From: an uncultured Oscillospiraceae bacterium | Lineage (GTDB): Bacteria > Bacillota > Clostridia > Oscillospirales > Oscillospiraceae | Assembly (NCBI GenBank): GCA_934546725.1 | Contig: CAKTED010000019.1 | Coordinates: 1-12,124, forward strand | DNA: 12,124 bases | Direction: 5' to 3' | In this document: positions 1 to 12,124 of the stretch, in pieces | How the letters are laid out: every line of letters begins with the position of its first letter | Numbering within the stretch: position 1 is the first letter of the stretch | Notes under the pieces: model-generated | Databases searched by the model: none | Told to the model about the DNA's origin: nothing | What the model saw: only the letters and a program-made list of their open reading frames with translations | Program-made: the position numbers and the translations under genes

Positions 1-1
1 G

Positions 2-196
2 TGGCTGTTCACGATCCCCTCCGCCGCCATAAGCGCCTTTGTTTTCAACGCGTCGCCTGTCGTGGTCTTCTGCTTTCTCAAGGCCGACCAGCTGCTCAAG
101 TGCATCCCGAACGGCATCGTATGCAACCGCTATAAATGGGTGCGCAGTCTTACGCGCGAGACCGCCCCGCAGGGTACGGGAGCTGAATCAAAATGA
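2..196 (+). CDS. MATE family efflux transporter, C-terminal fragment
   Basis: Only the last 64 codons are in the window; the gene enters from the left edge, open from base 2, and ends at TGA 194-196. The fragment holds a hydrophobic segment (SAAISAFVFNASPVVVFCFL) followed by a basic cytoplasmic tail with KADQLLKC and NRYKWVRSLTR. This ending is characteristic of Gram-positive MATE (NorM/DinF-type) multidrug or metabolite exporters, whose last helix is followed by a 'K-W-V-x-x-L-T-R' tail. MATE proteins are 12-helix membrane antiporters driven by Na+ or H+. The stop codon overlaps the start of the next gene (ATGA), so the two are probably translated together. The family call rests on the tail alone and the substrate cannot be inferred. 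Confidence 0.8.
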   Translation, partial: WLFTIPSAAISAFVFNASPVVVFCFLKADQLLKCIPNGIVCNRYKWVRSLTRETAPQGTGAESK

Positions 197-1065
197 ACAT
201 TATCGGAGTTGACGTGGGTGGAACGTTCGTCAGGCTTGGAGCGCTGCGCGGCGAGCGGGTCGAGGCGCTTGTGAAGCGTCCGTCGGCTGAGATTTTCTCC
301 TCGCCAGGCGGCGCTGCCGCAGGACTTGCCGCCGCGATAGCGGAATACTGCGGCGGAGAAGCGCCGGACGCCGTGGGCGTCGGCATTCCCGGAACGCTCA
401 GCCGCGACGGCGCGCAGGTGCTGAACGTTCCGAATATTCCCGGTCTGAACGGCCTTCCGCTGCGCGATATGCTCTCCTCGGCGCTGGGCGCGCCGGTCTT
501 TGTGGAAAACGACATTACCATGCTCGCAACGGGCGATTCGCGGCGCATGGGTCTTGAGCGCGGCGTGGTGTTCGGCTGCTATATCGGCACGGGTCTCGGC
601 GGCGCGGTGCTCGTCGACGGCAGGCTGCTGCGAGGCCGCAGCGGGCTCTGTGAGCCGGGGCATATATCCGTTTTCGGGCTTGACAGGCCCTGCGGCTGTG
701 GAAAATCCGGCTGCGCGGAGGCCTATGTTGCCGGCCGCGCGCTGGAAAGACTGCGCGACGAGCGCTTTCCGGGCGTTCCGACGGGTGAAATTTTTCTCGC
801 CATGAGCGCAGATGAACGCGGGCGCTACGTCGATATTCTCGCGCACCTGCTTGCCTCGGCGGTGCAGCTGCTGGACCCGGACGCCATTATCATGGGCGGC
901 GGCGTCTGCGCCATGCGGGGCTTTCCGCGCGGTGAGCTGCTCGCCCGGCTCGGCGAGCTGTGCATGTCGCCCGTCCCCGCCACAACGCTGAACCTGCTCT
1001 ATCCCGAGCCGGGCGACGACGCCGGGGTCTTCGGCGCTTCGGTCTTCGCCGCCGCGCCGGATTGA
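193..1065 (+). CDS. ROK family sugar kinase (AlsK-like)
   Basis: A 290-aa ROK-family kinase, a usual length for a stand-alone kinase. There is no N-terminal winged helix, so it is not a NagC/XylR-type repressor. The phosphate-binding loop is GVDVGGT (residues 5-11). The catalytic aspartate is probably D107 in V-E-N-D. A second nucleotide-binding segment, YIGTGLGGAVL, is at 130-140. The ROK zinc-binding signature follows: H157 in EPGH, then C167-G-C169-x3-G-C174-x-E176. The C-terminal half carries LLDPDAIIMGGGV, and its pattern around GGGVCAMRGFPR resembles E. coli D-allose kinase AlsK more than glucokinases. It probably phosphorylates a hexose in the cytoplasm; allose is only a suggestion. 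ATG 193 overlaps the upstream MATE stop, implying a shared transcript. Confidence 0.88.
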   Translation: MNIIGVDVGGTFVRLGALRGERVEALVKRPSAEIFSSPGGAAAGLAAAIAEYCGGEAPDAVGVGIPGTLSRDGAQVLNVPNIPGLNGLPLRDMLSSALGAPVFVENDITMLATGDSRRMGLERGVVFGCYIGTGLGGAVLVDGRLLRGRSGLCEPGHISVFGLDRPCGCGKSGCAEAYVAGRALERLRDERFPGVPTGEIFLAMSADERGRYVDILAHLLASAVQLLDPDAIIMGGGVCAMRGFPRGELLARLGELCMSPVPATTLNLLYPEPGDDAGVFGASVFAAAPD

Positions 1066-1097
1066 GCCTGTTGCTGCATGTTGCCCGGGCCTGTGCC

Positions 1098-1160
1098 CCT
1101 CCTCGGGGGATCCCCGCTGCGCGAGGATGACGGAGGAAGCGACGACCCTCGCGCGTCCTC
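1098..1160 (-). repeat. interspersed hairpin repeat, inverted copy
   Basis: Read on the minus strand this contains GAGGACGCG, then CCTCCGTCATCCTCGCG, the loop and GCGGGGATCCCCC, ending GAGGAGG. It closely matches 9391-9450 on the plus strand. The core is an 8-bp stem ATCCTCGC/GCGGGGAT (one T-G wobble) around the loop GCA. This is the only copy seen left of position 5940. It lies in the convergent gap between the ROK kinase and mrp. Confidence 0.75.
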
Positions 1161-1197
1161 TGCACCTGTGTCCTCGTTACCGCCTTACACCTCCCAT

Positions 1198-1252
1198 GCA
1201 AAATAACACAAACGCCGCAGCCGGTCGCAAAAAACGAACCGACTGCGGCGTT
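1198..1252 (-). terminator. Rho-independent terminator of the rpmH-mrp operon
   Basis: On the minus strand, 18 bases past the mrp stop, AACGCCGCAG (1252-1243) pairs perfectly with CTGCGGCGTT (1220-1211). An inner CGGT/ACCG pairing is separated by one mismatch. The hairpin is followed by the U-rich tract TGTGTTATTTT (1210-1200). The strand polarity of the U tract and the position right after mrp support it as the end of the minus-strand operon. It may also stop transcription arriving from the ROK kinase, although the plus-strand tail is less U-rich. Confidence 0.85.
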
Positions 1253-1270
1253 AACAATTTGTCGCTTAAC

Positions 1271-2143
1271 TTACAGCGCCTCAAGGGCGTCGCCGAGAGC
1301 CTTCATCTCGGGAAGGTCGATCTTCTCGATCTCGCCCGCGTCGCAGGCGGCGGCGATCTCGGGCATTATCGGCAGCTTTGCCAGGACCTTGAGGCCCTGC
1401 TCGGCGGCCACGGCGTCAATATTGCTCTCGCCGTAGATCCTGTGCTCCTTTCCGCAGTCCGGGCAGCGGAAGCAGCTCATGTTCTCAACAAGGCCGAGGA
1501 CGGGGATATCCATAAGCTTCGCCATGTTCACTGCCTTGGCAACGATCATGGATACGAGGTCCTGCGGCGAGGTGACGACAATGATGCCGTCCACGGGCAG
1601 GGACTGGAAAATCGTGAGCGGCACGTCGCCGGTTCCGGGAGGCATATCAACGAACATATAGTCCACATCGCCCCAGACAACATCCGTCCAGAACTGCTTC
1701 ACCGTGTTTGAAATAATGCTTCCGCGCCATACGACGGGCTGGGTCTCATCGTCAAGGAAAAGGTTGACGGATATGAGCTTCACGCCGCCCTTGCTCTCGG
1801 CCGGGATGATGCCGAAGGAGTTTGCTTTCGCGCGCTCGTGAACTCCGAAGCACATGGGGATGGACGGGCCGGTCATGTCGGCGTCCAGGATGGCAACGGA
1901 GTGATTGCGGCGGTTCATCATCGCCGCGGAAAGGGACGTTACGAGCGATTTGCCCACGCCGCCCTTGCCGGAAACAATGCCGATGACCTTTTTCACATGG
2001 CTCTGCGCATTGCAGGGTGCGGTAAGGTCGGGCGTCCCGCAGCTGCCGCCGCAGGAGGAGCAGCTGCCGCAATCGCCGCAGTCTCCGCCGCAGCTGCCGC
2101 CGCAGCCCTCCTGCTCCATGCTCTCGTTTTCGTAATCAGACAT
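1271..2143 (-). CDS. mrp: Mrp/NBP35-family Fe-S cluster carrier ATPase
   Basis: A 290-aa P-loop protein of the Mrp/ApbC/NBP35 group, which binds and transfers Fe-S clusters to apoproteins in the cytoplasm. The deviant Walker A motif is SGKGGVGKS (58-66), with the signature lysine near its start. LDADMTGPSIP at 86-96 is the family's switch I region. The Walker B-like segment VDMPPGTGD is at 165-173. The C-terminal CxxC, NMSCFRC (C224, C227), is the expected bridging cluster site of the dimer. The N-terminus is a Gly/Cys/Ser tract with cysteines at 14, 18, 22, 25, 28, 31 and 35, plus C44. Similar Cys-rich leaders occur in anaerobe Mrp proteins and may hold an extra cluster. ATG 2143 is preceded by AGGAGG at good spacing. 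It is the last gene of the operon. Confidence 0.93.
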   Translation of the reverse strand: MSDYENESMEQEGCGGSCGGDCGDCGSCSSCGGSCGTPDLTAPCNAQSHVKKVIGIVSGKGGVGKSLVTSLSAAMMNRRNHSVAILDADMTGPSIPMCFGVHERAKANSFGIIPAESKGGVKLISVNLFLDDETQPVVWRGSIISNTVKQFWTDVVWGDVDYMFVDMPPGTGDVPLTIFQSLPVDGIIVVTSPQDLVSMIVAKAVNMAKLMDIPVLGLVENMSCFRCPDCGKEHRIYGESNIDAVAAEQGLKVLAKLPIMPEIAAACDAGEIEKIDLPEMKALGDALEAL

Positions 2144-2166
2144 GCTCTAAAACCTCCTGATTATGT

Positions 2167-2214
2167 TCAGACGGCGCGCAAACGGGCAACCATCCTCGCC
2201 TGCGCGCCGCCTGA
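2167..2214 (-). promoter_or_regulatory. strong stem-loop between acpP and mrp
   Basis: Arms 2167-2180 and 2201-2214 (GGCGCGCA/TGCGCGCC core) form a 14-bp stem with one G-U pair in the RNA and a 20-nt loop. There is no U tract on the mrp side (ACATAATCAGGAGG follows), so it is not a standard terminator. A second small palindrome, ACGGCCCGGCCGT, lies at 2230-2242, directly after the acpP stop. The likely role is protecting the acpP 3' end, or processing or partial attenuation before mrp. No promoter for mrp fits between the stem and the mrp ribosome binding site. Confidence 0.6.
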
Positions 2215-2243
2215 CATGAAATTTTCCATACGGCCCGGCCGTC

Positions 2244-2474
2244 TCAGCCAAGCCGGTTTTCGATATAGTTTACCACATCGCCGACGGTTTTAAGCTCGGC
2301 GATCTCCTCATCCTCGATCATAATGCCAACCTCGTCCTCCACGGACATCATGAGCTCGACAACGTCGAGAGAGTCTGCGCCAAGGTCGTTTACAACGTCG
2401 GTATTCTCGTTTATCTGATCCTCATCGATCCCGAACTGGGAAGAAAGGATACTTTTGATCTTATCAAGTACCAT
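2244..2474 (-). CDS. acpP: acyl carrier protein
   Basis: A 76-aa acidic helical protein, the normal size for a type II fatty acid synthase acyl carrier protein. The motif DLGADSLDVVELMM places the phosphopantetheine attachment serine at S35. The rest fits the four-helix fold: MVLDKIKSILSSQFGI for helix I and an acidic recognition helix around residues 36-50. ATG 2474 is chosen because GAAGGAG lies eight bases upstream. An in-frame ATG at 2495 would add seven residues, but that extension encodes the ribosome binding site itself. It follows jag by 29 bp and precedes mrp by 100 bp. ACP carries growing acyl chains for membrane lipid synthesis. Its place behind jag is unusual, since the common neighbours plsX, fabD/F and rnc are absent here. 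Confidence 0.95.
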   Translation of the reverse strand: MVLDKIKSILSSQFGIDEDQINENTDVVNDLGADSLDVVELMMSVEDEVGIMIEDEEIAELKTVGDVVNYIENRLG

Positions 2475-2503
2475 TAAAAAGGCTCCTTCCGTCATCGAGA
2501 GGC

Positions 2504-3178
2504 TCAGGCTCTGTACCTGGGCTTACCGTCGTCCCGCCTGGGGGCCACGTTGTTGCCGTAGGCCACAACGATGCGGCGGTTCGGCTCCGTACCTGTGGAG
2601 AAGGTGGAAACGCCGTCGTAATCCTGCAGCGCCGTGTGGATAACGTGGCGCTCATAGGAATTCATCGGCTCAAGGGTCATGTTCTTGCGGTATTTTACTA
2701 CCTTTGCAGCAACCTTTTCTGCCAGATGCTGGAGCGATTCCTCGCGCTTTGCGCGGTAGTTCTCGGCGTCCACGCTGATGTGGACGTGCTTCTCGCTTGC
2801 GCGATTCATTGCGTAATTCGTAATGTGCTGGATGGCGTCGAGCGTTTCGCCGCGGCGGCCTATGAGCATACCCAGCTTCTCGCCGGTAAGGTTGACGCAG
2901 ATGGTGGTCTCGTCCTTCTGCTCAATGACAGGTGTCGCGTCGGAGCCAAGTCTTTCAAGCAGTCCCCTGAGGAAGCTTTCTGTCTGCTCGACAATATCGT
3001 CCGGTCTTTCATAGGTGACCCTGACTTTGGCCGGAGAAGCGCCTATGCCGAGAAAACCGGATTTGGCGCGCTCCAGAACCTCAACGGAGACCTCCTCGCG
3101 GGTGCAGCCCAGCTCCGCCAGCGCGGACTGGATCGCATCGTCCTCGGTCTTACCCGTTGCCTCAATAACTTTAATCAT
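2504..3178 (-). CDS. jag: RNA-binding protein Jag/KhpB
   Basis: A 224-aa protein with the three-part Jag layout. Residues 1-52 form the Jag-N domain, with its hallmark KSGFLGIG at 39-46. Residues ~80-140 form a KH domain, with the RNA-binding loop IGRRGETLD at 106-114. Residues ~150-212 form an R3H domain, with the R-x3-H signature R177-H181 in NSYERHVIH. Jag/KhpB is known to bind RNA, often with KhpA, and in streptococci it affects cell elongation and division; in Bacillus it is encoded next to spoIIIJ (yidC). Here it directly follows yidC (15 bp). ATG 3178 has AAGGAGAG upstream. The last 12 residues are basic and probably disordered. Confidence 0.95.
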   Translation of the reverse strand: MIKVIEATGKTEDDAIQSALAELGCTREEVSVEVLERAKSGFLGIGASPAKVRVTYERPDDIVEQTESFLRGLLERLGSDATPVIEQKDETTICVNLTGEKLGMLIGRRGETLDAIQHITNYAMNRASEKHVHISVDAENYRAKREESLQHLAEKVAAKVVKYRKNMTLEPMNSYERHVIHTALQDYDGVSTFSTGTEPNRRIVVAYGNNVAPRRDDGKPRYRA

Positions 3179-3193
3179 AAGGCACTCTCCTTA

Positions 3194-4564
3194 TCAGTCC
3201 TCAGCCTCAGGCCCGTCCTGAGCGTCGGCGCCGGTCCCGTCTTCGGCGACGGCGTCGCTTCCCGTCTCCGGTGCAGTGCCTTCGGTGCCTTCTGCGGCTG
3301 TGGGAAGAGCCGTGCTATCCGCCGCGATCGCGTCCCCGGCGGGCAGCTCCTCCGCCGTGACCCGCTCCTCCTCCGTTTCGGGTTCCGGAACGTAGTTTTT
3401 GCTGAAGCGGTCAGGCTTGTAGTTTCTTCCGCGGGCATAGGGGCGGTCGCCCACCGCGGAGGGATTTTCCTTTTTCTTTTCGGTCTTGACGTATTTGCCG
3501 TTGGCGGTCTTCACGACCTCGCCGCGCGCGATGGCGCGCTCAATATCGTTCTCCTCCGCCTTCTGCTTTTCCTTCATGGCGATCTTGCGCCTGCTGGTGT
3601 TGGGATTGGCCACGGTAGCTCCGGCGGCGCGCAGCTTCTCGGTCTCGGCGCGCTTTGCCGCGCGCTCTGCCTCGATGGCGGCCTGCTTTTCGCGGCGCTC
3701 GGCATCCTCCGCGTCAAGTATCTTCTTGTAATGCTTCGTGAGCACAACGTCCTGCAGGATGGAGAAAACGCTGCTGGCGATCCAGTAAATGCCGAGAGCG
3801 CCGGGCATTACGAAGCCTATCCACAGGGACATTATGGGCATCATGAGCATCATGGTCTTGCCGCCGGCGGCCTCGGTGGTATTGTTGCCGCTGGCCTTAT
3901 TGCTGATGACCATGGAAAAATACGAAAGCGCGGCGGAAATGACGGGGATGAGGAACAGGCCGAGCTGCGGCCATATCGCCTCCCCGTTGGAGAAAAACTC
4001 CCATACGCGGAACGAGGGGTTCGCGCCCAGGTCAAGCCCGAGGAAGGAGTAATCGATGGTCTGCAGCTTGTCGCTTATGCCTGCAAACTTGTCAAAATTC
4101 TGTGTAATGAACTGAGACTGGGCGATCTGTATATAGGCGGAGTTCGTCCCGCCGGAAAAGCCCAGCGTCTCAAGGACCTTCTGAATGGCGGCATAGGCCT
4201 CGTCGCCAACGCCCATCATGATGGTGATGGGGTAACGGATGGCCTGGTAGAGCGCCAGAAGGATGGGGAAGGGAATGAGCGACCAGATGCAGCCGCCCAT
4301 GGGGTTTATGCCCTCTTCCTTATAAAGCTTCGCAACCTCTTCCTGATACTTCTGCTTGTTGCCCTCATACTTCTTTTCCAGCTCCTTCATGAGCGGCTGG
4401 AAGCGAGTGGAGCGCATAAGACTCTTCTTGCTCTTCATGCTGAAGGGCAGGAGGATAAGCCTTACTATGAGCGCGAAGAGGATAACGGCAAGACCGTAGT
4501 TGTTTACGAAGTTATACAGAACGAGCATCAACCAGCCGAAGGGTTTTGCTATTGCAGATAACAT
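3194..4564 (-). CDS. yidC: YidC/Oxa1/SpoIIIJ membrane protein insertase
   Basis: A 456-aa insertase that helps place proteins in the cytoplasmic membrane, alone or with SecYEG. Five hydrophobic segments are visible at about 22-41, 92-110, 198-221, 238-256 and 257-273. R35 in ALIVRLILLPF is the conserved groove arginine. Residues 42-90 are the charged cytoplasmic hairpin loop (KKSLMRSTRFQPLMKELEKK). No signal peptide or lipobox is present, unlike Bacillus SpoIIIJ but as in many clostridial homologues. After the last helix a long tail follows: a basic, coiled-coil-like part (281-365) and then an acidic, low-complexity end (395-456). About 175 residues past the membrane domain is long for the family. 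ATG 4564 has ACGGAG nine bases upstream. It lies 36 bp after yidD, with a hairpin between them. Confidence 0.95.
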   Translation of the reverse strand: MLSAIAKPFGWLMLVLYNFVNNYGLAVILFALIVRLILLPFSMKSKKSLMRSTRFQPLMKELEKKYEGNKQKYQEEVAKLYKEEGINPMGGCIWSLIPFPILLALYQAIRYPITIMMGVGDEAYAAIQKVLETLGFSGGTNSAYIQIAQSQFITQNFDKFAGISDKLQTIDYSFLGLDLGANPSFRVWEFFSNGEAIWPQLGLFLIPVISAALSYFSMVISNKASGNNTTEAAGGKTMMLMMPIMSLWIGFVMPGALGIYWIASSVFSILQDVVLTKHYKKILDAEDAERREKQAAIEAERAAKRAETEKLRAAGATVANPNTSRRKIAMKEKQKAEENDIERAIARGEVVKTANGKYVKTEKKKENPSAVGDRPYARGRNYKPDRFSKNYVPEPETEEERVTAEELPAGDAIAADSTALPTAAEGTEGTAPETGSDAVAEDGTGADAQDGPEAED

Positions 4565-4586
4565 TCAATAATTCTCCGTTTCAGAG

Positions 4587-4611
4587 CTGTGCCCTCTGTT
4601 TCAGGGCACAG
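4587..4611 (-). promoter_or_regulatory. stem-loop across the yidD stop codon
   Basis: CTGTGCCCT (4587-4595) and AGGGCACAG (4603-4611) form a perfect 9-bp inverted repeat with a 7-base loop. The yidD stop (4603-4601) lies at its edge, and the yidC ribosome binding site follows within about 10 bases. There is no U tract, so transcription termination is unlikely. A ribosome finishing yidD would open this hairpin, so it could tune yidC translation or mark an mRNA cleavage site. Confidence 0.5.
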
Positions 4612-4810
4612 GGTCATAGCCCCCCTCGTGAAAAGGGTGGCAGCGCAGCAGTCTCCTGAGAGCCAGCCAGGAGCCCTTGAGCGCGCCGTACTTTTCTATG
4701 GCCTGGAGAGCATATTCCGAGCAGGTCGGAATATACCGGCAGCACGGCGGACGCAGCGGCGAAATCCTTCGCCGGTAGAATCTGATCAGGAACAAAAACA
4801 GCTTTTTCAC
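4601..4810 (-). CDS. yidD: membrane protein insertion efficiency factor YidD
   Basis: A 69-aa protein with the family's full signature. It has an amphipathic basic N-terminus ([22 protein letters not shown]) and then the cysteine motif [12 protein letters not shown]. The C-terminal block is [17 protein letters not shown]. YidD is a small, inner-membrane-associated factor that helps the YidC pathway, and its gene conventionally lies between rnpA and yidC, as here. The start is GTG 4810, supported by GGAGG at 4822-4818 with seven bases between. It begins 15 bp after the rnpA stop. Three conserved cysteines (C23, C24, C30) and C57 are present. Confidence 0.95.
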
Positions 4811-4825
4811 GGAACCGCCTCCGGC

Positions 4826-5164
4826 TCAGCCCGAAATGAGCTTCAGCCGCCCGGCCGCCTGGAGAAAGTCTCTCTCAAGCTCCGCGTATGGCGCATCCTT
4901 AGCCCTTGTTCTTGCCACGGCTACTATGTCCCATCCCGGCGAAAAGCGCTCCTCATTGAGCCGGTATATCTCTCTCAGGCGGCGGCGGACAAGGTTTCTG
5001 TAAACCGCCTTTCCCACCTTTGAGCCCACGGTTATGCCGTATCTGTTCTTCTCGGCGCCGTTTTTCCGGCAATAGAGGACCACAAGAGGCGTGGCAACGC
5101 TCCTGCCTCTTGCATAAACCCTGCGGAATTCATAATTCTGATTTAGGGACACGGTAAATTTCAT
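4826..5164 (-). CDS. rnpA: ribonuclease P protein component
   Basis: A 112-aa basic protein, the usual size. It is the protein subunit that, with the rnpB RNA, removes the 5' leader from tRNA precursors. The family signature is clear in YRNLVRRRLREIYR (residues 55-68: R56, N57, R60, R61, R64, E65), which binds RNase P RNA. The N-terminus NQNYEFRRVYARGRS matches the substrate-leader binding cleft, and YGITVGSKVGKAV forms the central beta strand. ATG 5164 lies only six bases past the rpmH stop. No good ribosome binding site is visible in front of it, so translation probably depends on ribosomes ending rpmH. The rpmH-rnpA pairing is nearly universal in bacteria. Confidence 0.96.
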   Translation of the reverse strand: MKFTVSLNQNYEFRRVYARGRSVATPLVVLYCRKNGAEKNRYGITVGSKVGKAVYRNLVRRRLREIYRLNEERFSPGWDIVAVARTRAKDAPYAELERDFLQAAGRLKLISG

Positions 5165-5170
5165 GACAGC

Positions 5171-5305
5171 TTAGTAGGAGAGCTTTTTGCGGCCCTTGGC
5201 TCTGCGGGCGGAAAGCACCTTGCGGCCGTTCTTCGTGGCCATTCTCTTGCGGAAGCCGTGCACCTTGGAGCGGTGAAGCTTCTTGGGCTGATAGGTTCTG
5301 AGCAT
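5171..5305 (-). CDS. rpmH: 50S ribosomal protein L34
   Basis: A 44-aa highly basic protein reading [18 protein letters not shown], then [20 protein letters not shown] and RKKLSY. This is an almost perfect bacterial L34, whose core is the RTYQPKK...HGFRKRM...GRKVLxxRRAKGRKxLS pattern. L34 binds 23S rRNA in the large subunit. ATG 5305 is preceded by AGGAGGTG with eight bases between, the strongest ribosome binding site in the operon. It is the first gene of the minus-strand operon and lies 131 bp downstream of good promoter hexamers. In many bacteria dnaA sits divergently upstream. Here a DtxR-family regulator gene lies there instead, in the same direction. Confidence 0.98.
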
Positions 5306-5429
5306 TGCGATGACACCTCCTGAAAATAATAGAAAATAAAAAAATACTCAACATCCCCGCCCTTTCGGACGGAGAAGCAGTTGACGGTGTAAAGTCTGCC
5401 GCATTAACGGGCAGAGTATCATAACACAG
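5306..5429 (-). promoter_or_regulatory. structured 5' leader of the rpmH operon
   Basis: The inferred transcript start near 5429 gives a leader of about 120 nt. Two hairpins can form. The first pairs TCTGCC with GGCAGA (5395-5400/5410-5415). The second, TCTCCGTCC/GGGCGGGGA (5354-5375), is a 9-bp stem with two G-U pairs closed by a GAAA tetraloop. Eight nucleotides after it comes a U-rich stretch (plus-strand A-run 5333-5346), then the rpmH ribosome binding site. The hairpin-plus-U layout resembles a weak attenuator. Its U tract starts too far from the stem for a confident terminator call. Confidence 0.5.
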
Positions 5430-5435
5430 CTTAGT

Positions 5436-5465
5436 ATTTTACCCTACAATACCGCCCCGTGTCAA
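5436..5465 (-). promoter_or_regulatory. rpmH: sigma-A-type promoter of the rpmH operon
   Basis: On the minus strand a perfect -35 TTGACA (5465-5460) is followed after 18 bases by TAAAAT (5441-5436), five of six to the -10 consensus. It lies between the DtxR-family gene and rpmH and points into the operon. The predicted start is near 5429. Confidence 0.75.
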
Positions 5466-5467
5466 TA

Positions 5468-5492
5468 TTTTTTGAGAACATTGCTCAAAAAA
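5468..5492 (-). terminator. possible weak terminator after the DtxR-family gene
   Basis: TTTTTTGAG (5468-5476) and CTCAAAAAA (5484-5492) form a perfect 9-bp inverted repeat with a 7-base loop, ten bases after the regulator's stop codon. Most pairs are A-T and only a short U-rich tail follows (TATT), so termination would be inefficient. The rpmH -35 box begins three bases beyond it. It might instead act as a stability element. Confidence 0.35.
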
Positions 5493-5501
5493 GCGCTGCA
5501 T

Positions 5502-5885
5502 TTACTCCTCCGGCGGCTCCGAATACCGCTCGGCGTGGCGCTTTATCGCCTCGAAGGACTCGTCGCTTATAACGTGCTCCATCTTGCAGGCGTCCTCCGC
5601 CGCCGTGGTCCCGTCCACGCCCAGCGCGCAAAGAAAGCGCGTCAGGAGCGTGTGGCGCTCGAATATCTTCTCCGCCACCTCGCGGCCGCTGTCCGTAAGA
5701 GTAAGGAATCCGTCCCTGTCGGCGGAAACATAGCCCCCGTTTTTGAGTATTCCCATCGCCCGGCTTACGCTCGGCTTGGAATATCCCATGTATTCGCCAA
5801 CGTCTATCGCGCGCACCGCGCTCATTTTTCTGCTCAGCACCAGTATCGTTTCCAGATACATTTCGCCGGATTCCTGCAAATGCAT
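5502..5885 (-). CDS. DtxR/MntR-family metal-dependent transcriptional regulator
   Basis: A 127-aa cytoplasmic repressor with an N-terminal winged helix-turn-helix (about 5-65, VGEYMGYSKPSVSRAMGILKNGGYV) and the metal-binding dimerisation domain. The C-terminal SH3-like domain of DtxR (about 226 aa) is missing, as in MntR. Aligning the family's metal ligands by eye gives M9, E12, H78, C100, E103 and H104. M9 and C100 match DtxR/IdeR (Met10, Cys102), whereas Bacillus MntR has Asp8 and Glu99. This favours iron sensing, but ligand identity alone does not prove it. ATG 5885 is chosen for its GGGAGG box. In-frame ATGs upstream, at 5909 and 5939, lack one, and the latter overlaps the promoter. No metal transporter gene is adjacent. 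Confidence 0.88.
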   Translation of the reverse strand: MHLQESGEMYLETILVLSRKMSAVRAIDVGEYMGYSKPSVSRAMGILKNGGYVSADRDGFLTLTDSGREVAEKIFERHTLLTRFLCALGVDGTTAAEDACKMEHVISDESFEAIKRHAERYSEPPEE

Positions 5886-5918
5886 TATTCCGCCTCCCTG
5901 CGTGTTCATATTATTTCC

Positions 5919-5947
5919 ATTATATCCGCTTTGGCGCAAAAGCGCAA
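5919..5947 (-). promoter_or_regulatory. promoter of the DtxR-family regulator gene
   Basis: On the minus strand a perfect -10 TATAAT (5924-5919) lies 17 bases after TTGCGC (5947-5942), a weak -35. The start is predicted near 5912, giving a short leader before ATG 5885. The spacer contains GCGC-AAAA-GCGC (plus strand 5934-5945), a small inverted repeat that could be an operator. It does not resemble the DtxR or MntR consensus boxes. Confidence 0.65.
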
Positions 5948-6004
5948 GTCTATTTTGCCGTCAGCCCGAATTGTGTTTGTAAAGGGTGTCCGAGCACCCC
6001 AACC

Positions 6005-6059
6005 GTGGACGCGGAGGCCCAAACTTTCCGTCATTCAGAGGGCGAAGCCCCCATGGAGG
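6005..6059 (+). repeat. interspersed hairpin repeat, copy 2
   Basis: Starts GTGGACGCGGAGGCCC, passes CCGTCATTCAGAG and ends CCCCCATGGAGG. The core hairpin is GGGC (6040-6043), loop GAA, GCCC (6047-6050). The GGAAT segment present in other copies is missing, so it is slightly shortened. Confidence 0.75.
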
Positions 6060-6060
6060 C

Positions 6061-6138
6061 GCAGAGCAGTCCGTCATCGTTCCCTCCATCAACCATCCAG
6101 GGGATTCTTCGGTCGCCTCCGGCTCCCTCTGAATGACG
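6061..6138 (-). repeat. interspersed repeat, opposite orientation, copy 3
   Basis: Read on the minus strand: CGTCATTCAGAGGG, hairpin GGGAGCC/GGCGACC (plus 6111-6117 and 6121-6127) with loop GGA, then GAAGAATCCCC. The stem has tandem G-A mismatches flanked by Watson-Crick pairs. Together with copy 2 it forms a 110-bp unit bounded by the perfect 14-bp inverted repeat CGTCATTCAGAGGG at 6029-6042 and 6125-6138. Its outer half (6061-6108) is duplicated at 6463-6510. Confidence 0.7.
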
Positions 6139-6200
6139 TTCAGGAGCAGAGGTGCGCAGCAGGGTGCGGCGGTAAACAGTAGCACCCTGCACCCTGGTCC

Positions 6201-6269
6201 GTGGACGCGGAGGCCCAAATTTCCCGTCATTCAGAGCCCACGCAGTGGGCGTGGAATCCCCCATGGAGG
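6201..6269 (+). repeat. interspersed hairpin repeat, copy 4
   Basis: A full copy: GTGGACGCGGAGGCCC, AAATTTCCCGTCATTCAGA, hairpin GCCCAC (6236-6241), loop GCA, GTGGGC (6245-6250), then GTGGAATCCCCCATGGAGG. It is nearly identical outside the hairpin to 9469-9540 and, for the first 50 bases, to 12047-12124. Confidence 0.8.
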
Positions 6270-6287
6270 GCAGGGGAGTACGACACC

Positions 6288-6358
6288 GTGGACGCGGAAA
6301 GCCACCACTTCCGTCATCCTCGCGCCATCCCCCGCCTCGGACGCGAACCCGGCGCAGC
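6288..6358 (+). repeat. degenerate interspersed repeat, copy 5
   Basis: Begins GTGGACGCGGAAAGCC and CCGTCATCCTCGCGC like the other copies, but the expected GCGGGGATCC is replaced by about 25 unrelated bases. The sequence GCGCAGCGG then resumes (6351-6359). It looks like a copy broken by a small insertion or rearrangement. The right end is approximate. Confidence 0.5.
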
Positions 6359-6462
6359 GGATCGCGGCCGAAAAGGAGGAGCAAGGGAGTGGGCAAAGCT
6401 TTCGCCGTCAGGCGGAAGCTGAGCTTAACGGACTTTGCGACGACGCAATCTCCCATTCAGGG

Positions 6463-6531
6463 GCAGAGCAGTCCGTCATCGTTCCCCCGGCAGAACCATC
6501 CAGGGGATTCCCGCGCGAAGCGCGAGAATGA
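6463..6531 (-). repeat. interspersed repeat, opposite orientation, copy 6
   Basis: Shares a 24-bp identical block (6463-6486 versus 6061-6084) and a 17-bp block AACCATCCAGGGGATTC (6494-6510 versus 6091-6107) with copy 3. The hairpin is different: CGCGC (6512-6516), loop GAA, GCGCG (6520-6524), followed by AGAATGAC. Confidence 0.7.
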
Positions 6532-6574
6532 CACCCCAACAGCGGACGCGAGCACCCCCCGCTGCGTCATCATA

Positions 6575-7642
6575 TCACCCGTGCCAGGCGTAATACTTCG
6601 CAAGCAGCGCCTCGGCCGCGCTCTTCGTGCTCACGCCGAGCTTTCCGTAGGAGTAGCGCAGCATGAGCGGCGCATCCTCGCCGTACCGTTCATAAAGCGC
6701 CGCAAACCAGCGCTCCGAACCCGGCGCGGCCTCCGTATCATCGCTCTTCAGCCCCGCAATGTACTCCCTCGCCTGCTCGCGGCTCATCCCCATTGCCGAA
6801 AGCTGCGCCGAGTTCGGCATGAGCCCCTTCTTCAGCATGGCCTCGCCGAGCGCCGCAAGCGTCTTCGTCCCCTCGGCCGTCGGCGTGCCGGAGGCGGTGT
6901 AGCCGCTGAGCTTTGCGGCGGAAAGCTCATATTCCGCCTGCTGCTGCGCGATCTTCGCTTCAAGCTCCCGCTCGTCCAGCTCGTGCTGCTCAGACCATTT
7001 CCACAGCTGGGCAATGCTCGAAAGCCGCTCCTGCGCCAGGTCGAGCAGCCGCTCCGCCTTCTCGTACTCCCCGTCCGCCTGAAGCGCCGCTATCTTCGCC
7101 GCCGTATCCGCCGCAAGCTCCGTCTGCGCGCGCGATATCGCCGCGCGGCTGCGCGCCGCCGTGCTCTGTATGCTGTCGTACTGCGCGCGTCCAATGCCGC
7201 CGTCGTCTCCTCTCAGCTCGGCGTAAAGCGCGGAATTATCAAGTGCCTGCGCCTCGTCAATGTCCACCGCCCGGCGCTGCGCCTCAAATTCGGCGTCCGC
7301 CTCCGCCTGCGCGTTCCGCGCCTCCAGCACGGCGGCGTTCGTCGCGGCGTCAACGGCCCTTTCGGCGCGTTTGCCCGCGTCGGCATACCCGTCATTGATC
7401 TGCGCCGTCACCTCCGAAGCCGTCGCGCCCGCGCCCGAAGCACCGGCAGCGGATGAAGCACCGCCCGAGGGCAGCGGAACGTCGGAGGCGGCGTCGATCG
7501 TGCCCGTGGCCTGCGCCGCCTGCTGCTTTTTCATCTCCATCGCCGCCACCTCAAGGTGGTGCCTGCGCTCCCGCTCCGTCCACTGCGGCGTATCCTTCGC
7601 CGAGCTGCCGTAGGTCTCCCGAAGTCTCTGCAAAATGTTCAT
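6575..7642 (-). CDS. phage coiled-coil structural protein, unidentified
   Basis: A 355-aa protein rich in Ala, Glu and Gln, with long helical and probably coiled-coil stretches at about 80-245. Examples are EAQRRAVDIDEAQALDNSAL, SRAQTELAADTAAKIAAL and EKAERLLDLAQERLSS. Residues 46-76 are a Gly/Ala/Ser-rich linker. A short C-terminal part (MSREQAREYIAGLKS, then YYAWHG) may be a separate domain. No signal peptide, membrane span or catalytic motif is seen. The composition is like internal virion (ejection) or scaffold-like phage proteins, but the exact role is not recognised. ATG 7642 has GGAGG (7656-7652) immediately after the stop of the gene upstream (15-bp gap), so the two are co-translated. 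The stop lies beside a repeat remnant. Confidence 0.75.
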   Translation of the reverse strand: MNILQRLRETYGSSAKDTPQWTERERRHHLEVAAMEMKKQQAAQATGTIDAASDVPLPSGGASSAAGASGAGATASEVTAQINDGYADAGKRAERAVDAATNAAVLEARNAQAEADAEFEAQRRAVDIDEAQALDNSALYAELRGDDGGIGRAQYDSIQSTAARSRAAISRAQTELAADTAAKIAALQADGEYEKAERLLDLAQERLSSIAQLWKWSEQHELDERELEAKIAQQQAEYELSAAKLSGYTASGTPTAEGTKTLAALGEAMLKKGLMPNSAQLSAMGMSREQAREYIAGLKSDDTEAAPGSERWFAALYERYGEDAPLMLRYSYGKLGVSTKSAAEALLAKYYAWHG

Positions 7643-7657
7643 CCTGCTCCCCCTCCG

Positions 7658-9346
7658 TTATTCCACCGCGCATACGGGCGCAAAGCCCGAGGTATCAAGC
7701 ACGGCGGATACCTTCCGCGCCGCGCTGCTCTGCGCTGACGGCGTGTACGGTACCATGCCCCAGACGGCTCTGAGCAGGCAGTCAAAAAGATGCCACTCGC
7801 CGCCGCTTTTTACAACGAAATACCGCTCCGGCGCGGGCTGAAGCGCGTATCCCTCGGGCGCGGCATCCCCCGCGCAGCAGATGCGGCGGCTGCTCATGTC
7901 CGAAACGTTCACGATGCAGCGCCCGACGGGCAGATACTTCCCACCCCACAGCCCGCCGAGCGGCGCGCCGTTGAAGAAGCACAGCTCCGTCGAAAGCTCC
8001 TCCGGCAGCTGGAACGTCTCCTCAATGTCCATCGAATCCGCGCCGAGCCGGTAAAGCGTCTTACCGTAAACGCAGTATACGCCGCTTTCGTCCCCGGCGG
8101 CTATGCTCGCCCCGCCGATGCTCTCGCCGCCCACCGTCAGCACCGGCACGGCCGAGGAGCCGGAGGTCGTGATCGTACATTTCGCGGGCCGGTACCCCTG
8201 CGCCGTGCTTATGATGAAGTAGCAGTTGCCGCCGGAAAGGCGCACCGCCCCCTGCGCGTATGCCCCCGCGAGGCCGGTGGCAAATTCCGAGCTTGCGCTC
8301 ATAACGTCCGGCGCGTAAACCTTCAGCTTCGACTCGTCCGCGCCGTATTTGAGCATGACGAAAAGCTGCTCCCCGTAAACGTTCAGCACCGCGTCGTAAG
8401 TAGAGCCCTGCTCGTAGGCCCGCGTGAGCTTCGTTATGAGCGGCGCGCCCGCGGCGTCGCTCTCCACATCGCGGCGCTCAAAGTAAATGTACCCGCCCTC
8501 GTAAAATACGGCGCAGATAACTCCGCCAAGGCGCGCGCAGCCGCGATAGCCGTAGTTGCTGCCGGAGCAGAGCTTCGCGCTCGCCCCGCTTATGAGGCTG
8601 ATGAGGTAGTATTCCACCCCCGCCTTCACGATCATGTATTCGCCCGCCGCGTCGAGCCACAGAATGCTGTACGATGCGCTGGCCGACGCCGTGGCGGACA
8701 TCACCTCGCCCGTAAGCGTAACTGCGGAGCATTTCGCGCTCAGAACGTCCACGCTCTTCAGCTGCACCCCGTCATCGCCGAACGTAAGCCCCCACAGCTT
8801 CCCGTTTATGAAAACGCGGTTGGACGTGTATGTCCCTAGAACCGCCTCCGCGCCCTTGAGCGGCGCGCACATCGCCGCGAACGGGTATTCGCGCACGATC
8901 TCGCCCGCAACGACGCCGTCCGCCGCAATGGCGTTCTCAATGCTCGTCACCCGCCCCGAAAGCGCGGAAACGCCCAGCGCCGCGATAAGCTCGTTCACCT
9001 GCTCCTTTGAATAGTAGCCGCCGAGAACGTCGCCCTCAAGCGCCGCCGCAACAAGCTGCGCCAGCGTCCCGCCGTCCAGCGCGATGTTCCCCGCCAGTGA
9101 GCTTATCGCCGCCGCCAGCTCGTTTATGAGCGCCTGAACGTTCTCACCCTGCATGCCGCCCGGCGAACGCGCGCCTATCTCTTCCGCTCCGGACTGGGAC
9201 TCCAGCCTGTCCACCGCCGCGTTGAAAGCGTCGCGCGCCTCGTCGTGCAGCAGCTGCATGTCCTGCCGCACCTGCTCCTCGCTGTCCTCATACGTCGGAA
9301 AATCGCTCTTTTTCGTCCAGCTTTTTGAAAAAACAAGCTTCTGCAT
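7658..9346 (-). CDS. phage tail fibre-like or receptor-binding protein, hypothetical
   Basis: A 562-aa protein. The N-terminal segment (MQKLVFSKSWTKKSDFPTYE, then DSEEQVRQDMQLLHDEARDAFN) resembles a conserved module at the start of tail-associated proteins in Firmicutes prophages, probably an anchoring domain; this is recalled, not searched. Residues ~65-145 contain helical Ala-rich repeats (VQALINELAAAISSLAG). From ~150 to the end the sequence is beta-rich, with many Gly/Tyr/Ser turns and no catalytic motif, as expected of a beta-propeller or fibre domain. ATG 9346 is chosen because AAAGGGTG precedes it. An open frame continues upstream to 9499, but it runs through repeats 9391-9450 and 9469-9499 and has no ribosome binding site. 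The next gene starts 15 bp after its TAA. Confidence 0.7.
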   Translation of the reverse strand: MQKLVFSKSWTKKSDFPTYEDSEEQVRQDMQLLHDEARDAFNAAVDRLESQSGAEEIGARSPGGMQGENVQALINELAAAISSLAGNIALDGGTLAQLVAAALEGDVLGGYYSKEQVNELIAALGVSALSGRVTSIENAIAADGVVAGEIVREYPFAAMCAPLKGAEAVLGTYTSNRVFINGKLWGLTFGDDGVQLKSVDVLSAKCSAVTLTGEVMSATASASASYSILWLDAAGEYMIVKAGVEYYLISLISGASAKLCSGSNYGYRGCARLGGVICAVFYEGGYIYFERRDVESDAAGAPLITKLTRAYEQGSTYDAVLNVYGEQLFVMLKYGADESKLKVYAPDVMSASSEFATGLAGAYAQGAVRLSGGNCYFIISTAQGYRPAKCTITTSGSSAVPVLTVGGESIGGASIAAGDESGVYCVYGKTLYRLGADSMDIEETFQLPEELSTELCFFNGAPLGGLWGGKYLPVGRCIVNVSDMSSRRICCAGDAAPEGYALQPAPERYFVVKSGGEWHLFDCLLRAVWGMVPYTPSAQSSAARKVSAVLDTSGFAPVCAVE

Positions 9347-9390
9347 TTTTTCACCCTTTCTGATTATTAAATAATGTATCCTCCCACCCC

Positions 9391-9450
9391 GCGGACGCTT
9401 TGCCCCATCCCCCTCCGTCATCCTCGCGAAGCGGGGATCCCATACGGAGG
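9391..9450 (+). repeat. interspersed hairpin repeat, copy 7
   Basis: GCGGACGC, then CCTCCGTCATCCTCGC, loop GAA, GCGGGGATCCCATACGGAGG. The stem ATCCTCGC/GCGGGGAT (9420-9427/9431-9438) has 8 pairs with one wobble. It is the plus-strand counterpart of 1098-1160, which differs in the loop (GCA) and a few flanking bases. Confidence 0.8.
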
Positions 9451-9468
9451 TGCACAGCACCCCATCCC

Positions 9469-9540
9469 GTGGACGCGGAAACACAAAATTCTCAGTCATT
9501 CAGAGGGGTGCGAAGCACCCCGTGGAATCCCCCATGGAGG
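9469..9540 (+). repeat. interspersed hairpin repeat, copy 8
   Basis: GTGGACGCGGAAACACAAAA, TCAGTCATTCAGA, hairpin GGGGTGC (9505-9511), loop GAA, GCACCCC (9515-9521), then GTGGAATCCCCCATGGAGG. The 7-bp stem is perfect and unrelated in sequence to the stem of copy 4, although the flanks match. Confidence 0.8.
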
Positions 9541-9575
9541 CGCACACGCCCCAACAGTGGACGTGCAAGCCCCCG

Positions 9576-11372
9576 TCACCGTTCCTCCCCGCGCAGGCGG
9601 AAGAAGACCCGCGCCGAGAGCACGCTCATGTCCTGCCCCGGCTCGCCGTTAAAAAGCCGCATGGAAAAATTGCGCACATGGCGGCACCCGGGTCGGCGCA
9701 CGGCGCTTTTCGACCATCGCATGCAGCCGAGCATGCGGTAGCCGAGATTTCGCGGCGAAAGCCGCCACGAGCAGGCCCGGATCGGAACGGGATCGCGCCG
9801 CCGCTCATAATCGCTGATGTACTCAAGGTTCAGAACGCAGTCCGTCGTGGACGAAACGGTCAAAATCACCTTTTCCACATCCTTGAGCCGCTCGTACCCG
9901 CCCATGGACAGCGCCGCGAAGCGAAATTCCCGCTCAATGCCCGCTCCGAAGTCCGTAAAGCCGTCGTAAAAACGGCATATCCGCCCGTCCGGCGTAATGA
10001 ACCATATGTCCCGCCCGTCGCGCACGAAGGCCGCCGCGTGAACGTTCGTCAGCAAAAACCAGCTCGGCTTCGCCGCCGTGCTCACGGAGTAGTCCCAGAG
10101 GTAAATGTTCCCGTTCGCGGCCAGCCAGTAGCGCGCGCCGTCGTCCATGGAGGCGCAGACCCCCGCCGCCGCGTCGGCAAGCAGTCCCCCGCGCAGCTCC
10201 CCGCCGTCCACGTTCCGGCTCAGGTGCTGCAAATTGTTCTCCAGCGCGGCAGAGCTGTCCAGAAGACGGTAAACGCCCGCCTTTTTCGAGCAGAAAACGA
10301 GGTTGTTTTCCACCAGGCGTATGCTCCCCGGCATGTCGCAGCCGAGCGAATCGTTTATCTGCGCGAACGGCAGCTGAATGTACTCCCTGCCGTCTATCTC
10401 CGTCAGCGAAAGCGCCGCGCGCCCCACGCCGGTTGCCGTGAATATCGCCAGCATCCCCTGCTGGCGGCCAAAGCCCGTGATCTCGCCGCCGCAGAGATTG
10501 TACTGCGGCATGGGAAAGTAGCCCGCGTCCATCGCCGCGTGGTTGCCGTTCCAGAAGTATGCGTCCGGCTGCTCCCCGGCCCCGGCCATGACTATGCATA
10601 TCTTCGTCCCGCCGCCGAAAACGCAGGCAAAGCGGCAGTCCATAACGCTTTTGTACGCCTCCTCGTTTTCAAGCAGGTACGTTATGCGCACGCCCCCCTG
10701 CTGCGCCGCCGTGCCGAGCGTAACAACGCTCTCCCCGTCGTAGGAAAAATCCGCCGTTGCCGCGCCGTCCACCTCCACGCGCTCAATGCTCGCGCCCGTG
10801 ACCGGCAGGTGATACTCCGTCGTGTCCTTCGCAGCGGCGTACCATACGGTCTTCAGCCCCGTCAGGCGGTTCTCCGGCTGATAAGCGTCTCCCGCGCCCG
10901 TCGCCGGGTCCGCGTTTATCAGCGTCACGGGGATGTACGGCTCAACGTCCCCGGCGCTCAGCCCCTCCCCGTCTCGCACGATCCTGACGTAAGCGCCCGG
11001 GTTTTTGTAGTACAGCGCTCCGCCGTAAAGGAAAAACGTCCCCGCCGTTTCCGCCAGTCCGCTGTAAAGGCTTTCCGCCTCGCCCGTCTCCGGCTCGAGC
11101 GCGTATATCGCGTCCCCCGCGTGAAATATCGCCCGCCCCTCAAAAAGCCGCTCATACGCCGCCAGCCCGGTTTTCCCCGTTTCGTGAACGAGTCTCTGCC
11201 CGCGCCGCGAGGCAAGCGCGCCGTCGCGCCAGATCAGGTTTTTCATGGCGGGCGACTGGTTCGCCGCCAGCCGCCCCTCCTCGTCAAAAATGTTCAGCCC
11301 GCCGTCGAGCCTGTCAAGCTCAATGTATCTCAACGCCGCCTGCGACGGCAGCCGCGAAAGACTAACCCTCAT
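9576..11372 (-). CDS. phage neck/stabilisation protein (P22 gp10- or T7 gp12-like), probable
   Basis: A 598-aa beta-rich protein. The opening ELDRLDGGLN (residues 18-27) followed by NQSPAMKNLIWRDGALASRR (39-58) is the start typical of podovirus tail-neck proteins (P22 gp10 or T7 tail tube B type), which form a propeller-like ring below the portal. Repeated blade-like segments follow, such as AIFHAGDAIYALEPETGEAE, GNIYLWDYSV and DIWFITPDGRICRFYDGF. No enzymatic motif is seen. ATG 11372 is chosen because GGAGG lies eight bases upstream, and it overlaps the preceding gene by 11 bp. A start at 11393 lacks a ribosome binding site. The stop codon sits in sequence resembling the repeat family. The family call is from pattern memory, not a search. 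Confidence 0.7.
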   Translation of the reverse strand: MRVSLSRLPSQAALRYIELDRLDGGLNIFDEEGRLAANQSPAMKNLIWRDGALASRRGQRLVHETGKTGLAAYERLFEGRAIFHAGDAIYALEPETGEAESLYSGLAETAGTFFLYGGALYYKNPGAYVRIVRDGEGLSAGDVEPYIPVTLINADPATGAGDAYQPENRLTGLKTVWYAAAKDTTEYHLPVTGASIERVEVDGAATADFSYDGESVVTLGTAAQQGGVRITYLLENEEAYKSVMDCRFACVFGGGTKICIVMAGAGEQPDAYFWNGNHAAMDAGYFPMPQYNLCGGEITGFGRQQGMLAIFTATGVGRAALSLTEIDGREYIQLPFAQINDSLGCDMPGSIRLVENNLVFCSKKAGVYRLLDSSAALENNLQHLSRNVDGGELRGGLLADAAAGVCASMDDGARYWLAANGNIYLWDYSVSTAAKPSWFLLTNVHAAAFVRDGRDIWFITPDGRICRFYDGFTDFGAGIEREFRFAALSMGGYERLKDVEKVILTVSSTTDCVLNLEYISDYERRRDPVPIRACSWRLSPRNLGYRMLGCMRWSKSAVRRPGCRHVRNFSMRLFNGEPGQDMSVLSARVFFRLRGEER

Positions 11373-11982
11373 AGCCAGAGCCTCCGTAAGCATCCGCCAC
11401 GGAATATCGCTCCGCCCGCGCCGGAAGCTTCAGCCGTTCAAGACGCGCCTCAAACTCGTTGAGCAGCGCGGCGTAGGCAAAGCTGTCGTCGTGCATGGCC
11501 AGGTGCGCCGCGGCGTAGTACGGCAGCAGCGCGTGCGTCTCCGGCGCGTTGTCCGCCTCCGCGTCCTCGTCCGGCCCGGGGCCGAAAAGACGCGGATAGC
11601 GGCAGTATTCAAGCGTAACGTCGCCAAAAAGCCCCTCCGGCACAAGCAGCGCCGAGCCGCCGACCATGTGGTATTCGTGGCTGCGGGAAAATTCCCCGTC
11701 GCGTATCACGATAAGCCCGCGCCCCGAAAGGCGGAAAAGGTCCTGCGGCAGCTCGAACCTCAGCCATCCGCCGACCCTCTCGCCAAGGTAGCTCTTCAGC
11801 TCGAAAAGCTCCGTTATCGGCCTTACGGTCGTGGCTATCAGCAGCTGCCCGTCGTCCGCCGCCATCGGCAGCCTGTTCAGATAGTCCGCCTGCTCGTTGT
11901 AGCTCTCGCTTATTTTCTCCCCCGCCATGCTGTATCTGTTCATCAGCCGCAGTGTATCATCCCGTATCTGCCCGTATGTCAT
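11362..11982 (-). CDS. phage head-tail adaptor-like protein, probable
   Basis: A 206-aa protein with no signal or membrane segment. The N-terminus TYGQIRDDTLRLMNRYSMAG plus YNEQADYLNRLPMAADDGQ is helical. The middle is beta-rich (WLRFELPQDLFRLSGRGLIV, SALLVPEGLFGDVTLEYCRY). The C-terminal ALLPYYAAAHLAMHDDSFAY plus ALLNEFEARLERL recalls the 'PYYxAAHLxxxDD...L...F...L' helix of connector/adaptor proteins (P22 gp4, T7 gp11 or gp6-like). Its position directly before a gp10/gp12-like gene fits an adaptor that joins portal and tail. ATG 11982 is chosen because GGAGG stands seven bases upstream; the frame is open to 12078, but only through repeat sequence. TAG overlaps the next gene's start by 11 bp. 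Confidence 0.65.
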   Translation of the reverse strand: MTYGQIRDDTLRLMNRYSMAGEKISESYNEQADYLNRLPMAADDGQLLIATTVRPITELFELKSYLGERVGGWLRFELPQDLFRLSGRGLIVIRDGEFSRSHEYHMVGGSALLVPEGLFGDVTLEYCRYPRLFGPGPDEDAEADNAPETHALLPYYAAAHLAMHDDSFAYAALLNEFEARLERLKLPARAERYSVADAYGGSGYEG

Positions 11983-12046
11983 TGTCTCTCCTCCTTCATA
12001 TGTCTCCGCCCCTCCCGGCTCCCTCCCGCCGCCCGTGCATGCCCCA

Positions 12047-12124
12047 GTGGACGCAGAAAGCCCAAATTCTGCTGTCATTCAGAGCCCACGCAGTGGGCGA
12101 AGAATCCCCCCGGTGGTTCCTCCC
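12047..12124 (+). repeat. interspersed hairpin repeat, copy 9 (runs off the window edge)
   Basis: GTGGACGCAGAAAGCCCAAA, TGTCATTCAGA, hairpin GCCCAC (12084-12089), loop GCA, GTGGGC (12093-12098), then GAAGAATCCCCC. The hairpin is the same as in copy 4, but the right side reads GAAGAAT instead of GTGGAAT. It lies 65 bp upstream of the adaptor-like gene. Confidence 0.8.

Follow-up and report, generated by a model that had tools for sequence, protein, structure and literature searches.

Probable CGTC-type palindromic repeats in an Oscillospiraceae-related contig, partly remnants of head-to-head pairs and apparently moved in some hosts by a factor other than RAYT

What kind of element leaves small hairpins of changing sequence between constant flanks, and what moves it? 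The question is raised by a stretch of 12,124 nucleotides from an uncultured Oscillospiraceae bacterium (contig CAKTED010000019.1, positions 1 to 12,124; hereafter the window), in which an earlier note had described a repeat family with covarying stems and an always-GNA loop, and had likened it to the elements mobilised by RAYT/Y1 transposases. With a probability of roughly 0.7, the repeats are CGTC-type repetitive extragenic palindromes (REPs) of an Oscillospiraceae-related bacterium, partly the remnants of head-to-head pairs, non-autonomous, and moved in some hosts by a trans-acting factor other than the REP-associated tyrosine transposase (RAYT) or its Y1 relatives. In the proposed unit a spacer of about 45–50 nt separates two imperfect hairpins whose tags face outward. 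This unit would be copied as single-stranded hairpin DNA, and the trans-acting factor would recognise the small loop together with the tandem G.A mismatch and the GTCAT tag, not the stem sequence.

The repeat family itself is real. A pattern restricted to the flanks, GTC-AT[T/C]C-N5..34-G[A/G]AT-CC, matches the window seven times, against a mean of 0.065 and a maximum of 1 in 200 first-order Markov sequences, and the reversed window sequence gives 0 matches under the fold rule and 0 under the loose rule. Seven of the eight copies listed earlier are complete by their flanks (Table 1), while the eighth, placed at 6005, corresponds to a truncated hairpin at 6029–6049; two truncated copies are present in addition to the seven complete ones. 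The listed starts 6005, 6201, 9469 and 12047 are not hairpin starts and belong to a separate 5′ flanking block, GTGGACGCGGAAGCCC, which has seven window matches at ≤3 mismatches against 0.32 expected, one of them (6245) within the 3′ side of a hairpin. This block lies about 25 nt 5′ of several hairpins. The tags of the seven complete copies read CGTC in four, TGTC in two and AGTC in one, only the first base being free under the search pattern. All seven carry AT at the first two stem positions, GTCAT being demanded by the pattern itself, and their tails all start with CCC. A fold-rule match at 6313 was rejected as a long spurious fold across the truncated copy that starts at 6311.

Table 1. 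Repeat features and associated stretches of the window, in order of position; copies are named in the text by their tag position.
Feature	Position	Strand	Tag position	Remarks
CGTC hairpin	1107..1131	-	1131	Stem ATCCTCGC, loop GCA, tail CCC; between ROK-family and Mrp/NUBPL-type genes
5′ flanking block GTGGACGCGGAAGCCC, 16 nt	6005..6020	+		More copies at 6201, 6288, 9469, 9557 and 12047
Head-to-head pair, REPIN-like	6029..6138		6137	Truncated hairpin 6029–6049, spacer about 6050–6100, hairpin 6101–6138 on the minus strand (loop GGA, two G.A mismatches)
CGTC hairpin	6226..6262	+	6226	Stem GCCCAC/GTGGGC, loop GCA, tail CCCCC
Truncated CGTC hairpin, 5′ half alone	6311..6330	+		Absent from the earlier list; read from sequence
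Half unit	6447..6533		6532	Spacer stretch from 6452, then hairpin 6502–6532 on the minus strand (loop TTC in tag orientation); no partner hairpin
Prophage-like genes, four, around the repeats	6575..11985	-		Tail-fibre-like, virion-structure-like, two without assigned function; PHROGs and L079 synteny
Stretch with both hairpins (9417, 9495) between two prophage protein matches, 241 nt	9338..9578			Same matches 27 nt apart in L079
CGTC hairpin	9417..9441	+	9417	Stem ATCCTCGC, loop GAA
CGTC-type hairpin, tag AGTC	9495..9533	+	9495	Stem GGGGTGC/GCACCCC, loop GAA
CGTC-type hairpin, tag TGTC	12074..12110	+	12074	Stem GCCCAC/GTGGGC, loop GCA

All genome-wide figures were obtained from relatives, namely 149 genomes around G002, and not from the window's own genome. 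The window YidC is 69% identical to that of L001 and L002, Oscillospiraceae metagenome-assembled genomes (MAGs) of buffalo-caecal and sheep-rectal origin that are located in G001 and G002, and 68–70% identical to that of L003 and L004. The distribution of the repeats among these relatives is patchy. The strict pattern has at least one match in 36 genomes, and the CGTC-rich genomes, with at least eight, are seven of the 149: G002 (62 matches), G102 (25), G144 (23), G075 (14), G126 (11), G074 (9) and G016 (8), with 0 for the reversed-pattern control. Under a wider flank pattern the counts are 97 in G102, 65 in G144, 63 in G002, 35 in G126, 29 in G074 (control 1), 17 in G075 and 12 in G016. Single matches in relatives are partly chance or tRNA-like, and part of the matches were examined as loci; many single broad-pattern matches ending in TTCGAATCCC resemble tRNA 3′ ends and were set aside by eye. 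Viral contigs gave a single stretch with the hairpin pattern and a single one with the flank pattern (L169, L170).

Covariation of the stems, from which selection on a folded strand had been proposed, was borne out by an arm-swap test that compares the inner-stem energy of a copy's own arms with that of arms exchanged among flank-only copies over 1000 shuffles. The seven window copies average -7.63 with their own arms and -4.02 with swapped ones, and 0/1000 swaps were as good. The same 0/1000 was obtained in G002 (n=31), G144 (n=36), G102 (n=39) and G074 (n=9), with 5/1000 in G126 (n=12) and 12/1000 in G075 (n=13). The copies share ancestry, and these results are therefore not independent events. 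On this test selection for a folded strand is supported. The statement that pairing is kept in every copy does not stand, since GGGAGCC/GGCGACC contains two G.A mismatches and ATCCTCGC/GCGGGGAT one T.G.

In the usual build an internal loop joins an outer stem of 4–5 bp to an inner stem that ends in a triloop; three window hairpins are continuous over 8–10 bp with a 3-nt loop. Folded as single-stranded DNA, four of the eight window copies are better than almost all of their shuffles (z -2.4 to -3.6) and two moderately so (z -1.5, -1.7); the truncated copy (z 0.1) and the 6137 copy (z 0.3) are no better. For five of the eight the lowest-energy fold is the full hairpin including the outer stem. 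Across genomes, in hairpins chosen by fold, the outer stem varies on both sides (ATTCC/GGAAT, ATCCT/AGGAT, ATTCT/AGAAT, ATGCT/AGCAT, ATTGC/GCAAT), and a tandem GA/GA internal loop lies 3′ of it in 77 of 106 distinct hairpins of this fold-chosen set. Because hairpins selected by fold have pairing partly by construction, the flank-only arm-swap test is the less biased of the two. In DNA, cGNAg loops and tandem G.A mismatches have unusual stability, and putative recognition of the repeats as single-stranded DNA is plausible.

The loop is less uniform than had been claimed. Read from the tag, six of the seven complete window copies have a GNA loop (GCA in three, GAA in two, GGA in one) and the 6532 copy has TTC, which reads GAA solely on the opposite strand, so that the uniform rule mixed the two strands; the truncated copy at 6029–6049 has GAA. 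Among 153 flank-only copies, distinct per genome, from the window and the seven genomes, 111 have a triloop and 73 a GNA loop (66/141 when copies are counted once across all genomes), the others including TTC, AAA, AAC, ATC and four-base loops. The loops are thus not limited to GNA genome-wide, the outcome that the earlier note had itself named as telling against its rule: GNA is favoured and not invariant.

The arrangement of the hairpins points to a larger unit. Under the strict rule G002 holds 18 pairs in head-to-head arrangement plus 26 further copies, and the context shows missed partners for some of these 26. Fifteen of the 18 pairs were aligned over their full length; the three left out have a differing end (one) or an extra internal hairpin (two). 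Each aligned pair is bounded by an A end (GTCATTCAGAG-stem-loop-stem-CGAAGAATCCCC) and a B end (GTCATTCCGAGC-NN(N)-GCGAGGAATCCC, reversed), and the spacer of about 45 nt between them is common to all 15. The pairs are nearly symmetric and are found in both orientations. Two-sided change was found at one of 26 predicted base pairs of this alignment, in which the copies are too similar to decide. When neighbouring complete hairpins less than 150 nt apart are scored as head-to-head or not (loose rule), head-to-head neighbours make up 34/44 in G002, 22/38 in G102, 13/22 in G144, 9/12 in G016, 5/5 in G126, 4/6 in G074 and 3/7 in G075. A second kind of pair, with its own spacer, was observed in L135, L139, L149 and L150 of G002, where the partner of GTCATTCCGAGC..GTGGGAATCC is inverted and resembles GTCATTGCGAGG..GCAATCTCC.

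The same organisation can be traced in the window. The spacer at 6029–6138 matches 14 G002 spacers better than any of its shuffles (0/500 as good), with a best match of 18/21 identical nucleotides, and the stretch is a degenerate copy of the G002-type pair; the shared spacer makes the head-to-head pair the likely unit. Weaker likeness to the G002 spacers was found from 6447 on (7/500 shuffles as good), after 6226 (5/500) and after 9495 (1/500). The spacer stretch from 6452 also matches that from 6050 at 32 of 35 bases.

Comparison of sister genomes had been put forward as a check on single copies. G102 and G144 are 84–99% identical over most long orthologous stretches, and 14 alignments were read, some of them including G126. 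A pair is present in both genomes at L191/L182, L202/L188, L199/L179 and L198/L179 (1977/3752). Differences run both ways: G102-specific are L205 at 700, L206 at 4736 and a second pair in L207, and G144-specific is L179 at 2044. None of these alignments contains a clean empty site. Head-to-head pairs with a common spacer and presence or absence at corresponding places together support the view that the repeats are REP-like and probably mobile.

The enzyme family suggested for this mobility was sought in the relatives, which are MAGs of unstated completeness, so that absence of a RAYT gene is no proof. Movement by a RAYT/Y1 (TnpA-REP) protein encoded elsewhere in the genome, as proposed for GTAG REPs, draws some credit from the Y1_Tnp family (PF01797), which lies above cut-off in 61/149 relatives, that is in 5/7 CGTC-rich genomes versus 56/142 others. 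G102 and G126, despite 97 and 35 flank matches, have no Y1_Tnp match at E≤10, and a profile built from seven RAYTs finds nothing at E≤0.1 in G102, G126 or G144. In G144 the Y1_Tnp matches number just two, of which one is strong and the other sits at the end of a contig; matches to the RAYT profile are present in G002, G016, G074 and G075. All nine near-full-length RAYT loci (E <1e-44, four CGTC-bearing relatives; one with an internal stop) hold at least two GTAG palindromes, against 0/9 in reversed sequence, and in several loci, for example L118, L119 and L122, these lie within the RAYT reading frame, as reported for other RAYT reading frames in the available part of PMC6006769. In L099 of G002 a RAYT gene (310–774) has sequence resembling, by eye, gyrB on one side and gyrA on the other, and GTAG palindromes lie downstream of it.

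The earlier note had suggested looking for a RAYT gene with these repeats on its flanks. The relatives do not bear this out: of the nine loci only one, L267, holds a CGTC hairpin, about 430 nt from the RAYT. Among four partial RAYT pieces, L268 is the 3′ end of a gene cut off by the edge of its contig; a CGTC hairpin follows its stop at about 70 nt, beyond a terminator-like hairpin. Around Y1 matches with a locus (n=54, many weak, not all matches), a CGTC-like hairpin is near 3/47 and 1/7 (reversed 1/47 and 0/7), and at least two GTAG palindromes are near 10/47 and 2/7 (reversed 4/47 and 1/7). The same lack of a transposase was reported for CGTC REPs of other phyla in the available part of PMC3733652. 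A RAYT/Y1 partner, as the earlier note had envisaged, is on these data improbable.

Slightly less probable still is that the repeats are RNA elements, such as 3′-end stabilisers, processing sites or attenuators, spread along with host transcripts. Inner-stem G.T mismatches outnumber A.C by 10 to 3 in 444 positions, as RNA pairing would permit, and two window copies are placed between codirectional genes; these mismatch counts are small, however, and the fold programme is itself biased towards G-U. The near symmetry of the pairs and their occurrence in either orientation also argue against this explanation, and the Rfam search of the window returned no family matching the repeats, its sole match being a microRNA far below cut-off. 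Miniature inverted-repeat transposable elements of a conventional DDE transposase, with GTCATTC...GAATGAC as terminal inverted repeats and incidental hairpins, would account for the inverted pair ends and for the folding of the consensus of the 15 pairs largely into one long hairpin, but are about as improbable, since the arms covary within each end beyond what terminal inverted repeats demand, target duplications were not seen in the 14 alignments and an ORF (open reading frame) cluster is near the repeats in no more than 3/8 groups (clusters not run against a family library).

Several observations weigh against non-autonomous CGTC-type REPs moved by a non-RAYT factor. No mobilising gene was found, nor an ORF cluster beside the repeats in more than the 3/8 groups just mentioned, and the 14 alignments show neither a clean empty site with defined ends nor a target duplication, nor was any transposition event seen. 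In the window 0/2 neighbouring hairpins are head-to-head when only complete hairpins count, and the pair at 6029–6138 joins one truncated and one mismatched hairpin. G016 shows no covariation (383/1000 swaps as good, n=6). Genome-wide copy numbers are those of relatives. The phage comparison counts on both sides. L079 and L080 are viral contigs, seemingly of one phage, and three proteins are syntenic with the window at 42–66% identity. The difference at 9338–9578, 241 nt with two hairpins against 27 nt in the phage, adds to the presence and absence data in favour of mobility but may be a gain or a loss. This phage also has a CGTC-type hairpin of its own (L079 1087; L080 3485), on the upstream side of its counterpart to window gene 11362–11985; the 12074 copy likewise lies upstream of that gene, so that this copy may be common to the window and the related phage.

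Some CGTC copies of G102, G144 and G126 lie inside Pfam-supported genes with the reading frame kept open, namely a YfhO gene in G102 and G144, an Rnf-Nqr subunit in G102 and a phosphoesterase in G126, where in our reading the copy directly follows a signal-peptide-like start. A large serine recombinase carries in-frame repeat copies, of CGTC and other kinds, in the region separating its zinc ribbon from its C-terminus (L206 3323–5416 in G102, L174 270–2171 in G144), four in G102 and one in G144 under the loose rule. This recombinase was considered as the mobiliser and, being nearly confined to G102 and G144, with one distant match elsewhere in the loci examined (L113, 4.2e-17), was treated as a target of the repeats. 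Four of ten scanned in-frame ORFs (L207, L199, L176, L186) have no Pfam match, and such ORFs are possibly read on the wrong strand. That CGTC pairs are live single-strand hairpin elements with a mover outside the Y1 family, now spreading in gut Oscillospiraceae and their kin and writing in-frame protein segments, is a tentative and rather doubtful extension of the reading preferred here.

The window repeats themselves lie between genes. Gene context from the longest ORF is unreliable in GC-rich DNA, and gene claims are limited to Pfam-supported genes, which outside the prophage-like region are rnpA, yidC, jag and genes of Mrp/NUBPL, ROK and iron-dependent-repressor type; a further ORF resembles acyl carrier protein, judged by eye only. 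For the four prophage-like proteins PHROGs gave two weak matches and one at 4.5e-20, with none for 6575–7642, and synteny with L079 covers three of the four.

If the reading of the repeats as CGTC-type REPs holds, the mover of CGTC pairs, left open in 2013 (PMC3733652, in its available part), could be sought in G102 and G126, which are rich in CGTC repeats and yielded no RAYT gene. CGTC abundance is separable from detectable RAYT genes in these genomes and sister species differ, which makes the search for such a factor practical, and a precise bait would be at hand in the tag combined with the small loop and the tandem G.A mismatch. The literature searched gave no later answer to the 2013 question, and among the titles listed, all of open papers and not of subscription papers or preprints, none concerned a CGTC repeat family in Bacillota; the available part of PMC6006769 mentions CGTC once, in its reference list.

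Among known systems the GTAG REPs and REPINs (paired REPs) with RAYT share tagged imperfect hairpins and a head-to-head pair as the proposed mobile unit. They differ in the tag, GTAG against NGTC in 7/7 window repeats, and it is GTAG palindromes that lie in or beside the RAYT genes of the same relatives. The closest likeness is to the CGTC REPs (families 1–4; Di Nocera 2013, PMC3733652), whose description, as far as the available text goes, appears to fit in most points: the CGTC/TGTC tag, AT first stem pairs (fixed in the window copies by the search pattern), variable stems, predominantly head-to-head pairs (likewise in relatives, as the G002 count shows) and no accompanying dedicated transposase. 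Their tail is mostly CCA, against CCC in the window, "most" making this no exclusion, and their 8–9 bp stem with a 4–5 nt loop differs from the often GA/GA-interrupted stem and triloop found here, the comparison being with the text description and not a figure. The five phyla named there do not include Bacillota, to which the present hosts belong. According to the same text Neisseria dRS3 is CGTC-1, of the same super-family by tag and palindrome, a likeness by description and not by sequence, and the Rickettsia palindromic elements RPE-4 and RPE-6 are CGTC-4 and CGTC-1. Many RPEs are reported there to sit in frame inside genes, a habit that the copies in YfhO-, Rnf-, phosphoesterase- and recombinase-type genes of G102, G144 and G126 parallel in an unrelated phylum; the host differs, the likeness is again by description rather than sequence, and the window copies lie between genes. 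This known super-family thus gains a new host group, in which the units are REPIN-like, sister genomes differ in their copies and a link to RAYT is absent.

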